From: Agrococcus carbonis
GTDB taxonomy: Bacteria > Actinomycetota > Actinomycetes > Actinomycetales > Microbacteriaceae
DNA: 64,000 nucleotides
Direction of reading: 5' to 3'
Assembly (NCBI RefSeq): GCF_900104705.1
Contig: NZ_LT629734.1
Coordinates: 2,418,001-2,482,000 of the forward strand
Below the pieces are notes generated by a model, which had not been told where the DNA came from, ran no database searches, and saw only the letters and a program-made list of their open reading frames with translations. Shown in pieces: positions 16,595 to 62,125 of this stretch; position 1 is the stretch's first letter; each line of letters begins with the position of its first letter. The translations under genes were made by a program, and so were the position numbers.

Positions 16595-16612
16595 CGCGTC
16601 CGCCGGTCCGTC

Positions 16613-17026
16613 GATCGAGGAGCGCGCGGCCGGAGGCCGCACGCGTCACGAGATCCGAGGAGCGAACCGCCCCGTCCGTCGATCGAGGAGCGCGCGGCGG
16701 GCTCACCGTCCTGTCCGTCGATCGAGGAGCGCGCGGCGGGCTCACCGTCCTGTCCGTCGATCGAGGAGCGCGCGGCGGGCTCACCGTCCTATCCGTCGAT
16801 CGAGGAGCGCGCGGCCGCAGGCCGCACGCGTCACGAGATCCGAGGAGCGAGCCGCCCCATCCGTCGATCGAGGAGCGCGCGGCGGGCCGGACCGCCCTGT
16901 CCGTCGATCGAGGAGCGCGCGGCGGGCTCACCGTCCTATCCGTCGATCGAGGAGCGCGCGGCGGGCTCACCGTCCTGTCCGTCGATCGAGGAGCGCGCGG
17001 CCGCAGGCCGCACGCGTCACGAGATC
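16613..17026. repeat. array A: nine palindromic elements in a nested higher-order array
   Basis: This fills the 447-bp gap between convergent dxr and the lysozyme-like gene; no gene is seen in it. Elements begin GATCGAGGAGCGCG at 16613, 16681, 16720, 16759, 16798, 16866, 16906, 16945 and 16984. Three are complete (16613-16655, 16798-16840, 16984-17026): an inner hairpin GCGGCC-GCA/GGA-GGCCGC and a right flank CACGCGTCACGAGATC, so the outer arms pair as GATC/GATC. The other six lack the right arm and repeat every 39-40 bp. The pattern is full, three half, full, three half, full, with a super-period of 185-186 bp. Confidence 0.93.
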
Positions 17027-17041
17027 CGAGGAGCGAGCCGC

Positions 17042-17677
17042 CTACCGCGGCGCGAGCACGACCTCGACGCCCGCCCGGTCCACCGCGTCCACGACCGCGC
17101 CCGCGTCGTCCCACCACCTCGCGTAGTGGTCCGGGTCGCGGTTGATCTGCACCGCGTGCGCGACCCGGGTCGGTGCGAGCGCGTCGCGCCCGTCGAGCCG
17201 CGCGAGCGCCCGGTAGAAGAGCACGGCCGAGCCGTACGCATCCATGCGCACCTCGTACGGCCCCCAGCCGGTGCGCTGCTGGAAGAGCCCGCGCGAGTCG
17301 GGCCCCGCATCGTCGCCGTGGTCGATGACGCGCAGGCTCGACTCGCCCATCGCCGTCATGACGCCGATGCGCACGTCGCGCTCCGAGAGCCCGAGATCGC
17401 GCCCCGCGCGCATCACGACGGCCGCGTTCTCGAGCTGCTCGCCGCTCCAGCCGGCGACCGAGCGCGGCAGGTCGCCCTCGACCGTCGCCGACTGCGTCAC
17501 GGGGTCCGGCTCGGGGCGCGTCACGATCCACGCGAGCAGCACCACGAGCAGCAGCCCGATCGCGCCCATCACGACGCCGCGGGCGTCGGAGCCGCGCGCG
17601 ACGCGCTCGGCGACGGGCCGGGAGGCGCGGCGAGCCGGTCGGGCGGCAGGTCGGGCGGCAGAGCGGGCGGCGGGCAC
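17042..17677 (-). CDS. membrane-anchored lysozyme/transglycosylase-like protein
   Basis: A 211-residue protein. An Ala/Arg-rich basic N-terminus is followed by one membrane helix (about residues 33-54, GAIGLLLVVLLAWIV), then an extracytoplasmic domain. The segment IGVMTAMGESSLR.. followed by SRGLFQQRTGWGPYE and a Tyr/Phe-rich helix resembles the lysozyme-like domain seen at the C-terminus of actinobacterial cell-wall hydrolases, where the Glu (here in MGESSL) is the likely acid. It probably cuts or binds peptidoglycan. TACCGT 6 nt before the GTG gives a leaderless promoter, divergent from the protease gene. The 3' end faces array A. The family call is by motif, not by overall identity. Confidence 0.75.
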   Translation of the reverse strand: MPAARSAARPAARPARRASRPVAERVARGSDARGVVMGAIGLLLVVLLAWIVTRPEPDPVTQSATVEGDLPRSVAGWSGEQLENAAVVMRAGRDLGLSERDVRIGVMTAMGESSLRVIDHGDDAGPDSRGLFQQRTGWGPYEVRMDAYGSAVLFYRALARLDGRDALAPTRVAHAVQINRDPDHYARWWDDAGAVVDAVDRAGVEVVLAPR

Positions 17678-19093: not shown

Positions 19094-19250
19094 GATCGAG
19101 TAGCGGCCCACCGGGCCGCGTATCGAGATCCCTTCGGTGCGTCTCGATACGCCGCCTGCGGCGGCTCCTCGACGAGCGAGGGGGCGCCCTGCCCGCGGCG
19201 GCTCCTCGACGAGTGAGGCGAGCGTCCCGCCCGCGGCCGCTCCTCGACGA
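19094..19250. repeat. array B: mixed palindromic elements, two subtypes
   Basis: These lie in the 198-bp gap between convergent rseP and the RNase H gene. At 19094-19130 is a 37-bp variant, GATCGAGTAGCGGCCC-ACC-GGGCCGC then GTATCGAGATC, with a 7-bp stem. From 19141 an inverted hybrid begins GTCTCGATACGCCGCC and continues TGC-GGCGGC then TCCTCGAC: its left flank belongs to the GTATCGAGA type and its right flank to the GAGGAGC type. Two shorter pieces ending GCTCCTCGACGAG follow at about 19196-19215 and 19231-19250. Confidence 0.82.
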
Positions 19251-19266
19251 GCGAGGGGAGCGCGCC

Positions 19267-20355
19267 TCAGCGCTCGGGCGTGCCCTGGTGGAACCGCTGG
19301 CGCCAGCGGCCGCCGGACCGCACCCAGAGCGAGCTGCGCAGCGCCGGCGCTTCGCCGACCGACCGCCAGACGACCAGCTGGGCGTCGGGGGCGACCTCGT
19401 GCGTCGCGAGCAGCTCGAGCTCGACCGGGCTCGGCAGCGGCGCGATCTCGGCGAGCAGCTCGTCGCGGCTCCAGCGCCGGCCCGAGGCGCCGATCTCCTC
19501 CCACTCCGGATGCAGCAGCGCGGCGACGCTCGCGGGGTCGGCGCGCACCTCGTCGGTGAGCAGCGAGCGCTCGAGGCGCACGACCTCGGCCTCGGCCGGC
19601 TCGTCGACGAGGAAGTCGAGGCCGTCGAAGAGGTCGACGGTGTCGGTCTGCGAGGTGGGGGCGGTGTCGGTCTCGAGACGCGTGCCGGCTGCGCCGGCGC
19701 GCTCCTCGACCTGCGGAGCGGCGGTGTCGGTCTCGTGACGCGTGCCGGCTGCGCCGGCGCGCTCCTCGACCTGCGAGGGGGCGGTGTCGGTCTCGAGACG
19801 CGTGCCGGCTGCGCCGGCGCGCTCCTCGACCTGCGAGGGGGCGCCGGCGCGCTCCTCGACCTGCGGGGGAACGGAGGCGCCGGCACCCGCGAACCCGGGC
19901 CCCGCATCCGGCACGCGCCCGCGCTGGTAGGCGGCGGCCGCGCCGTTCGCGAGCCGGTCGGCGGCCTCGTTGAGGGGGTGGCCGGCGTGCCCCTTGACCC
20001 ACTCGAAGGTCACGGTGCCGCCCGCGGCGCGGCGTGCCGTCATGAGCCGGTCGAGCTCTTCGAGCAGCTCGCGGTTCATCACGGGCTTGCCGTCGGCCTT
20101 CCGCCAGCCCTTGCGCTTCCAGCCCGGCATCCACTGCGTGATCGCCTTGATGACGTACTGGCTGTCGCACAGCACGTGCAGCTCGTCGACGCCGACGGTC
20201 TGCTGCAGCAGGTCGATGACGGCCGAGAGCTCGCCGATGTTGTTCGTGCCCTGCCGCTGCCCGCCGGCGGCCCAGCGGTCCGCGTCGATGTACCAGCCCC
20301 AGCCGGTGGGGCCGGGATTGCCGAGGGAGGAGCCGTCTGCAGCTGCGGTGATCAC
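19267..20355 (-). CDS. rnhA: ribonuclease HI fused to a C-terminal NTF2-like (DUF4440-type) domain
   Basis: 362 residues. Residues 1-150 are RNase HI, which cleaves RNA in RNA-DNA hybrids: catalytic Asp7, Glu42, Asp64 and Asp133 with His123 in VKGHAGHPLNEAADRLA, and the basic handle QWMPGWKRKGW. Residues ~165-229 are a linker made of three 20-residue repeats (PQVEERAGAAGTRLETDTA and near copies), which is the translation of palindromic repeat array C. Residues ~245-362 form an alpha+beta SnoaL/NTF2-like domain (LLHPEWEEIGASGRRWSRDE, LVVWRSVGEAPALRSSLWVR, WRQRFHQGTP). GTG start at 20355; a CAGGAT hexamer lies 6 nt upstream. The two domains are family calls; why they are fused is unknown. Confidence 0.9.
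   Translation of the reverse strand: MITAAADGSSLGNPGPTGWGWYIDADRWAAGGQRQGTNNIGELSAVIDLLQQTVGVDELHVLCDSQYVIKAITQWMPGWKRKGWRKADGKPVMNRELLEELDRLMTARRAAGGTVTFEWVKGHAGHPLNEAADRLANGAAAAYQRGRVPDAGPGFAGAGASVPPQVEERAGAPSQVEERAGAAGTRLETDTAPSQVEERAGAAGTRHETDTAAPQVEERAGAAGTRLETDTAPTSQTDTVDLFDGLDFLVDEPAEAEVVRLERSLLTDEVRADPASVAALLHPEWEEIGASGRRWSRDELLAEIAPLPSPVELELLATHEVAPDAQLVVWRSVGEAPALRSSLWVRSGGRWRQRFHQGTPER
19669..19861. repeat. array C: palindromic elements inside the rnhA coding sequence
   Basis: Three full copies at 19669-19711, 19729-19771 and 19789-19831 plus a right-half copy at about 19841-19861, in inverted orientation relative to arrays A and D-F. Each has GGTCTCGWGACGCGT, inner stem GCCGGC-TGC-GCCGGC, then GCGCTCCTCGACC. 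The period is exactly 60 bp, so the reading frame of rnhA is kept and each copy adds 20 residues. Copies differ at single bases (GAG versus GTG changes Leu to His in the protein). Confidence 0.95.
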
Positions 20356-29805: not shown

Positions 29806-29811
29806 CCCGCA

Positions 29812-30255
29812 GGTCGAGGAGCGCGCGCCGAAGGCGCACGCGTCACGAGACCCGCGCGCCGCAGGCGCCCGCGTCGCCTCCGCACGTCGAGGAGCGCGCG
29901 CCGCAGGCGCACGCGTCACGAGACCCGCCGCCGAAGGCGCCCGCGTCGCCTCCGCAGGTCGAGGAGCGCGCGCCGAAGGCGCACGCGTCACGAGACCCGC
30001 CGCCGCAGACGCACGCATCACCTCCGCAGGTCGAGGAGCGCGCGCCGCAGGCGCACGCGTCACGAGACCCGCCGCCGCAGGCGCACGCATCATCTCCGCA
30101 GGTCGAGGAGCGCGCGCCGCAGGCGCCCGCGTCACGAGACCCGCCGCCGCAGGCGCACGCGTCACCGCCGCAGGTCGAGGAGCGCGCGCCGCAGGCGCAC
30201 GCATCACCGCCGCAGGTCGAGGAGCGCGCGCCGAAGGCGCGCGCGTCACGAGACC
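29812..30255. repeat. array D: seven palindromic elements, 72-bp tandem period
   Basis: Fills the ~440-bp gap after proS; I see no gene in it although long frames stay open because the repeat carries no stops. GGTCGAGGAGCGCG starts at 29812, 29885 (one-base variant), 29957, 30029, 30101, 30173 and 30215. The inner stem is GCGCC-GCA/GAA-GGCGC; the right flank is CACGCGTCACGAGACC. Within each 72-bp unit a second partial hairpin (GCCGCAGGCGCACGC) follows. The last copy overlaps the next, convergent gene and supplies its stop codon (30246-30248). Confidence 0.94.
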
Positions 30256-40024: not shown

Positions 40025-40171
40025 GGTCGAGGAGTGCGCGCCGCAGGCGCTCGCGTCGCGAGACCCGCTCCTTCGCCGGTCGAGGAGCGCGCGCCGCAGG
40101 CGCTCGCGTCACGAGACCCGCTCCCTCGCCGGTCGAGGAGCGCGCGCCGGAGGCGCACGCGTCACGAGACC
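40025..40171. repeat. array E: three palindromic elements, 53-bp period
   Basis: GGTCGAGGAG starts at 40025, 40078 and 40131; right flanks end GTCACGAGACC (first copy GTCGCGAGACC). Inner stem GCGCC-GCA/GGA-GGCGC. Lies between convergent kinase and panE genes. Confidence 0.92.
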
Positions 40172-40195
40172 CGCAGCCGCCCCCGCGGCGCGCTC

Positions 40196-61719: not shown

Positions 61720-61739
61720 TCCGCCCCTGCCCGCTCGCT

Positions 61740-62063
61740 GGTCGAGGAGCGCGCAGCGCAGCCGCACGCGTCACGAGACCACCTGCCCCCTCGCTGGTCG
61801 AGGAGCGCGCGGCGGAGCCGCACGCGTCACGAGACCACCTGCCCCCTCGCTGGTCGAGGAGCGCGCGGCGGAGCCGCACGCGTCACGAGACCACCCTGCC
61901 CGCTCGCTGGTCGAGGAGCGGGCGGCGGAGCCGCACGCGTCACGGGACCACCCCGCCCCCTCGCTGGTCGAGGAGCGCGCGGCGGAGCCGCACGCGTCAC
62001 GAGACCACCCCGCCCCCTCGCTGGTCGAGGAGCGCGCGGCGGAGCCGCACGCGTCACGAGACC
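61740..62063. repeat. array F: six palindromic elements, 56-57 bp period
   Basis: GGTCGAGGAG starts at 61740, 61796, 61852, 61909, 61966 and 62023; each ends GTCACGAGACC (one GTCACGGGACC). Inner stem GCGGC-GGA-GCCGC; the first copy is mismatched (GCAGC-GCA-GCCGC). Between copies is a CT-rich spacer ending CTCGCT. Together with the terminator this fills the 461-bp gap between pnp and the M16 gene; I see no gene in it. Confidence 0.94.
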
Positions 62064-62125
62064 CCCGCCCCACAGCGCGCACGCCCCACGAGGCCCGCCC
62101 CGCCCCCACGCCGTAGACTGGCCGG

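Follow-up and report, generated by a model that had tools for sequence, protein, structure and literature searches.

The window, a 64,000-nucleotide stretch (G000:C1:2418001-2482000) of a 2.77-Mb single-contig Agrococcus genome (G000), carries on its minus strand a gene that fuses an RNase HI domain to a DUF4440 domain, with a palindromic repeat array in between. Agrococcus is a genus of the Microbacteriaceae, and close homologs of the window's RNase HI carry its name. The following features were located.

19267-20355, minus strand: RNase HI-DUF4440 fusion gene (rnhA), GTG start at 20355, stop at 19267-19269 (translation, Pfam)
19936-20340, minus strand: RNase_H domain (PF00075), residues 4-138 of P0001, E 9.2e-32 (Pfam)
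19849-19861, minus strand: left-arm-only repeat copy, GGTCGAGGAGCGC, encoding VEERA
19789-19831, minus strand: repeat copy 1, the 5'-most in the gene, 43 bp (GGTC..GACC), VEERAGAAGTRLET
19729-19771, minus strand: repeat copy 2, VEERAGAAGTRHET
19669-19711, minus strand: repeat copy 3, VEERAGAAGTRLET
19660-19843, minus strand: tandem array, period 60 bp, 3.1 copies, 95% matches, score 326 (Tandem Repeats Finder)
19618-19857, minus strand: predicted disordered linker, residues 165-244 (AlphaFold2 model m4693cabd5768)
19300-19581, minus strand: DUF4440 domain (PF14534), residues 257-350, E 6.6e-12 (Pfam)
19096-19263, no strand: related intergenic repeats just 3' of rnhA, between convergent genes, with a type II copy at 19096-19128 and a 38-bp tandem array at 19152-19263

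The codon-model gene call (19267-20355) agreed with the extent of the fusion gene, which was matched in 20 of 23 same-genus genomes. In the AlphaFold2 model (40 aligned sequences), which covers the rnhA linker alone among the repeat-bearing linkers, both domains form blocks with pLDDT values near or above 90, and linker segments 165-190, 192-229, 232-240, and 242-244 fall below 50. Both the RNase H half and the DUF4440 half, the latter presumably NTF2-like, change most at third codon positions in comparison with each of seven orthologs; against G002, DUF4440 showed 13, 11, and 33 changes at codon positions 1, 2, and 3 over 110 codons. The third-position bias in DUF4440 therefore indicates that the region downstream of the repeats has been kept as protein.

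An earlier note on this DNA had described three in-frame tandem palindromic copies with an exact 60-bp period between the two domains, and Tandem Repeats Finder, translation, and Pfam confirmed this arrangement. Each period consists of a 43-bp repeat and a 17-bp spacer, and the exact 39-nt cores occupy 19671-19709, 19731-19769, and 19791-19829 (minus strand). The extent given in that note, 19669-19861, is also right, as it includes the left-arm-only copy. All copies and the fourth left arm share one frame, which continues into DUF4440. The array translates as QVEERAGAAGTRLETDTAPS / QVEERAGAAGTRHETDTAAP / QVEERAGAAGTRLETDTAPT, and the linker is predicted to read VEERAGAAGTRxETDTAxx three times. 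The three units are near-identical and their inner stems are perfect in every copy, in keeping with the claim that a hairpin lies within the coding repeat; the inner stem GCC GGC GCA GCC GGC indeed encodes A-G-A-A-G.

A dispersed hairpin repeat family

Genomes were searched with the pattern TCGASKAGCG-N4..28-CGYVWCGAGA, using the reversed pattern as a control. G000 gave 202 exact matches (98 + 104), and the control gave 0. The 39-nt core of rnhA copy 2 recurs without a change in six intergenic copies within the sampled stretches of G000, and in one intergenic copy each of G002 and G004. Chance is no serious option because of the 202 matches against 0 in the control, together with these identical intergenic cores. 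Pattern matches were found in 20 of 24 genus genomes, and the reversed control gave 0 or 1 in the genus genomes other than G000. Among the 24, the exact pattern had no match in G003, G011, G012, and G015; since type II-like copies in G011, G014, and G022 miss the exact pattern, the lack of a match, as in G011, does not mean the lack of a copy. At least one match was present in 66 of the 150 genomes of the family sample, with dozens in some; single matches there may be due to chance, because the reversed pattern gives 1-3 in some genomes.

In this family, the arms TCGAGGAGCGC and GCGTCACGAGA flank a covarying stem that is capped by a GNA triloop. Stem pairing was counted in type I copies of lengths 37, 39, and 41 from G000, G002, G004, and G075. 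Among the 301 copies not contained in a gene, 1552 of 1687 stem pairs (0.92) were formed, compared with a mean of 0.67 and a maximum of 0.69 when the right halves were shuffled (300 shuffles), and the GNA loop was present in 269. The 28 copies within genes formed 142 of 160 pairs (shuffles 0.65, maximum 0.73). Type I (GAGGAG) accounts for 228 of the 248 intergenic copies counted in G000, G002, and G004, as well as for the copies listed for G075, which belongs to another genus. In several other genera, the listed copies are mostly of type II (GAGTAG...GTATCGAG). Beside the stem, type I reads TCGAGGAG or TCGACGAG, and type II reads TCGAGTAG.

Copies inside genes and their reading frames

Genes were called with a home-made codon model, in stretches picked for holding repeats. 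The full copies were distributed as follows; HrpA, CydDC, Lhr, DnaE2, and IleRS are names read from Pfam matches and sequences, not annotations, and the strict pattern overlooks the G002 rnhA units.

G000: 152 copies in 407,551 bp, of which 135 intergenic, 15 inside genes, and 2 partly inside; internal copies in rnhA (3), a NERD/UvrD-like helicase (1), and a CydDC-like fused ABC transporter (7, in two linkers)
G002: 68 copies, of which 59 intergenic, 5 inside genes, and 4 partly inside; internal copies in an amine oxidase (1), an HrpA-like helicase (2), CydDC (1), and an AMP-binding/abhydrolase protein (1)
G004: 59 copies, of which 54 intergenic, 4 inside genes, and 1 partly inside; internal copies in HrpA (2) and CydDC (1)
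G075: 97 of its 159 copies sampled, of which 88 intergenic, 9 inside genes, and 0 partly inside; internal copies in Lhr (5), DnaE2 (1), isoleucyl-tRNA synthetase (1), and an EamA transporter (2)
C-terminal tails: five copies, in the methionyl-tRNA formyltransferases of G000 and G004 and, in G000, in a CP_ATPgrasp protein (2) and a hydrophobic protein (L200)

The sampled stretches were 81-89% called coding and the copies in them were mostly intergenic, indicating that genes are strongly avoided. The element had been described as intergenic outside rnhA; this applies to 135 of the 152 sampled G000 copies, but not to the 15 inside predicted genes, 12 of which lie outside rnhA. The window also holds four arrays of this same repeat, at 16606-17042 (39/186 bp), 29807-30247 (72), 40025-40174 (53), and 61725-62071 (57), all intergenic in the gene calls, save a partial overlap at 30246.

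In nine of the ten families with internal copies, the copies lie outside the listed Pfam matches: between two matches in seven (rnhA, NERD helicase, CydDC, HrpA, Lhr, DnaE2, IleRS) and beside one match in two (AMP-binding, EamA). In the amine oxidase, the copy falls within a Pfam match. The Helicase_C match of Lhr begins at profile position 42, and the inserts ahead of residue 555 apparently interrupt this domain. Six of the ten families act on DNA, RNA, or tRNA, a count made without a length-matched control. The Lhr-type helicase of G075 (L349:1461-7247) spans 1929 codons and carries VEEP..SRRLET units in several inserts in addition to its five exact copies. The CydDC-like transporter of G000 (L211:206-4291; G000:C1:2159505-2163590), with its seven repeats in two linkers, has well over 100 residues, largely repeat-coded, between its halves. 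The repeat-coded C-terminal tails of the methionyl-tRNA formyltransferases (L173:2958-4094 in G000, L324:1557-2660 in G004) use another frame, reading GRGA.. / GRVA...

The codon model often scored the inserts as non-coding and their flanks as positive; in the second CydDC linker, for instance, scores ran from -0.27 to -0.56, and C-terminal tails fell below -0.5. Such scores are expected of repeat DNA, and the codon model is thus no proof of translation. The spacing of neighboring copies was a multiple of three in 5 of 7 intragenic and 29 of 71 intergenic pairs, which is weak evidence.

Five of the six type I frames are open in at least 97% of the 228 intergenic copies, and one is open in 9%. 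The VEER frame (VEER...TRHET) is the only near-neutral one, with a mean net charge of -0.5 versus +1.7 to +3.7 (n = 228). Leaving rnhA aside, six of the seven internal type I sites of G000, G002, and G004 use this frame (P 1.3e-4 with six equal frames, 3.7e-4 with five). These sites, chosen by hand, are the NERD helicase, CydDC linkers 1 and 2 (which share one gene), HrpA direct, HrpA inverted, the amine oxidase, and the AMP-binding protein; with the direct and inverted rnhA sites added, the count becomes 7 of 9. G075 uses VEER at 1 of 4 internal sites (IleRS), Lhr being read in inverted phase 0 and DnaE2 and EamA in direct phase 0. The frame rule, or charge filter, is therefore not general. 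Over all sites of Agrococcus and G075, VEER was used at 8 of 13 (P 3.5e-4 with six frames, 1.2e-3 with five). Sense type II copies read SSS at three sites (NERD helicase, HrpA, CydDC), where the VEER frame would meet TAG.

Turnover at shared linkers and competing explanations

The rnhA linker is hypervariable among relatives. The linker comparison left out 12 of 30 orthologs in which the script anchor was absent (10 outside the genus, plus G012 and G013), including some, such as G041 and G059, that are alignable over both domains; G017 had no rnhA locus to compare. Exact 12-nt repeat arms were found in 4 of the 18 two-domain rnhA linkers of the genus (G000, G002, G006, G019); in G019 this is no more than an inverted left arm. 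In P0003, the nearest relative (88% identity, compared at the protein level only), one full unit and four half units stand where the rnhA of the window has three full units and one half. G006 has one unit, and G002 has two direct units and an upstream inverted unit read as VSRRPAAPASST, a peptide that P0005 and P0011 share. In a tree of 44 rows (P0001, P0003-P0040, P0043-P0045, P0056, G006), VEER units occur in 8 of 37 Agrococcus-clade rows. The carriers fall in three clades of the two-domain tree, requiring three changes by parsimony, of which the starred branches force only one. A single old rnhA insertion with later losses would be compatible with this topology; the inverted copies are firmer evidence than the tree for more than one insertion.

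Three further observations were made at rnhA. The inverted arm in the G019 linker (L035:1501-2427) adjoins LRQAQEPEPA, which looks like another dispersed repeat. The G013 frame (L044, G013:C15) ends soon after the linker, at 196 residues, with DUF4440 lost or shifted. G041, from another family of the order, has a local tandem of RAEAGTPT in its rnhA linker (L046), unrelated to the repeat; this may be a hint that the linker generally grows by tandem duplication.

Other linkers have also been filled in different ways. At the NERD-helicase site, type I copies read as VEER occur in G000, G013, and G019 (decayed in G019), type II-like copies read as SSS occur in G011, G014, G016, G020, and G022, and no copy was recognizable in G010 and G018. 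After matching sequence, HrpA carries a type I copy in G002 but a type II copy in G004, and an inverted copy follows in each. In CydDC linker 1, type I is present in G000 and, as judged by peptide, in G006 and G019; type II peptides occur in G010 and G018, and no copy in G014 and G016. Since copy number, orientation, and repeat type differ at shared sites, insertion recurred, with the same linkers being reused.

We consider it likely that these observations reflect a mobile or copied hairpin repeat that is tolerated in linkers, filtered for frame, and amplified in tandem. Short hairpin repeats would have entered Agrococcus DNA many times, moved or copied by some agent; insertion or copying by a process acting on hairpin DNA is the most likely route. 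The copies seen inside genes mostly avoid recognized domains or sit at C-terminal ends, and they are read in frames that keep the protein open. At rnhA, one or more insertions would have entered the hypervariable linker between RNase HI and DUF4440, after which the 60-bp unit was probably duplicated in tandem by slippage or recombination. Selection on charge may have set the reading frame, and the linker is presumably translated and merely tolerated.

The repeats might instead have been adaptively recruited, that is, kept as a useful spacer of given length and charge in RNase HI-DUF4440 and other enzymes. Several observations speak for such a role: the rnhA linker of the window exceeds all others among the 99 measured, whose median, with this linker counted, is 48; the near-neutral frame is preferred in Agrococcus; and the same linkers were filled repeatedly in sister species. 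However, 14 of the 18 genus linkers keep both domains with 33-63 residues and no repeat arms, and linker sequence and copy number vary among relatives with no conserved number. We regard adaptive recruitment as somewhat doubtful. The earlier note's word "recruited" implied a function, but the data agree no less well with a hypervariable linker that tolerates the repeats.

It is rather unlikely that the repeat itself evolved harmlessness inside genes, with the type I GAGGAG opening the VEER frame that the type II GAGTAG closes. The VEER frame is open in 0 of 20 type II versus 97% of 228 type I intergenic copies, and type II copies inside the NERD helicase, hrpA, and cydDC use SSS and so avoid the TAG, both of which speak for this selfish adaptation. 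Yet most sampled type I copies are intergenic, so that little would be gained from opening one frame; four other frames are open anyway; and the copies listed for G075 are also GAGGAG, although its genes use other frames.

A purely local amplification of GC-rich linker DNA, unrelated to the dispersed repeats, would be in line with other homologs that have their own linker tandems (PQVDA in G004, RAEAGTPT in G041), but it is highly improbable and was rejected in view of the copy 2 cores found elsewhere in G000, G002, and G004 and the 202 dispersed matches. Equally improbable, and rejected, is a broken gene or one read in two pieces with the repeats untranslated: the early stop after the linker in G013, where there is no repeat peptide, has no counterpart among the repeat-bearing genes, and both the open frames and the third-position bias of DUF4440 against each of the seven orthologs oppose it. 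A stop before or within the repeats was looked for in relatives, and the frame was open through the linker in every repeat-bearing one seen.

Comparison with known systems and meaning

The earlier note likened the array to the Rickettsia palindromic elements (RPE), reportedly described by Ogata et al. in 2000 and 2002. The likeness lies in multi-copy palindromic DNA placed in frame in unrelated protein genes, according to PMC3733652 and PMC5896051. As expected of such elements, in-frame inserts were found in unrelated genes whose orthologs lack them (rnhA, NERD helicase, CydDC). RPE belong to another organism group and were likened by description, not by sequence; the Agrococcus repeats, unlike RPE, are 43 bp long, mostly intergenic, and present in both orientations and as two types at the same linkers of sister species. 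The repeat lies inside other genes too, so that rnhA is one instance among several. On the whole, the earlier interpretation is partly supported, being right in kind but too narrow in scope, and any function of the linker would be putative.

PARCELs (Roske et al. 2010, PMC2996958) are similarly described as tandem protein repeats encoded by dyad-symmetric DNA and spread in genomes. Their repeats are amphipathic, span 25 residues, and occur in ORFs to which no function is assigned, many of them with membrane-targeting sequences (PMC2996958), whereas the units here, 60 bp long, fall short of 25 residues with their 20 and lie inside conserved enzymes. The Coxiella MITEs QMITE1/2 are likewise small elements with inverted repeats. 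They overlap genes and in some cases lie mid-ORF and in frame, and QMITE2 contains a GTAG REP; these elements differ in being 150-400 bp long with direct repeats, and 19 copies of QMITE1 include entire short ORFs instead of linkers (PMC5896051).

A further parallel is with the intragenic GTAG/CGTC REPs of Di Nocera et al. 2013 (PMC3733652), 20-40 bp palindromes that are mostly intergenic. Some REPs occur inside genes as singles, dimers, or groups, for which the authors suggest flexible linkers or loops; grouped intragenic REPs encode 20-30 residues, and the Thauera and R. conorii clusters 43-82 (PMC3733652). Tandem linkers, which the earlier note had put forward as a difference from known systems, were thus already on record in that paper. 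The REP targets named in that paper include DnaE2, UvrD/REP helicase, RNA helicases, and tRNA synthetases, the same classes as in Agrococcus and G075 (dnaE2, NERD/UvrD-like helicase, hrpA, lhr, ileS). This overlap was unexpected and is the most interesting part of the comparison. The words Actinobacteria, Clavibacter, and Micrococc are absent from the main text of PMC3733652.

GTAG beside the stem is present in type II copies and absent from type I. GTAG REPs pair with RAYT transposases, whereas none was found in the repeat-bearing genomes here: the Y1 transposase (PF01797) was detected in 0 of 24 genus genomes (20 with the repeat) and, among other genera, in none of the 11 repeat-bearing genomes searched, with 5 of 14 control genomes positive in both searches. 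A REP/RAYT route is therefore not supported, and a RAYT-driven REP was rejected.

No description of this Agrococcus/Microbacteriaceae repeat family was found in the open-licence literature, among the matches listed. In this phylum, for which that literature offered no such report, again among the matches listed, dispersed hairpin repeats seem to have turned into coding sequence time and again, using the same linkers. Different repeat types at one site in sister species make frame choice, tolerance, and tandem growth countable, and they pose the question of whether such linkers alter enzyme function or are neutral baggage. A broader reading, which we offer tentatively as a possibility, is that the repeats are portable linker cassettes of the Microbacteriaceae, in which a hairpin family with no known transposase keeps invading the same linkers of information-processing enzymes (RNase HI, HrpA, Lhr, DnaE2, IleRS, UvrD-like helicase), passes a near-neutral-frame filter, and expands in tandem. 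If this is true, a selfish DNA hairpin would continually rewrite protein linkers, and the overlap of its targets with those of REPs in other phyla would reflect a shared logic of insertion or tolerance rather than chance.
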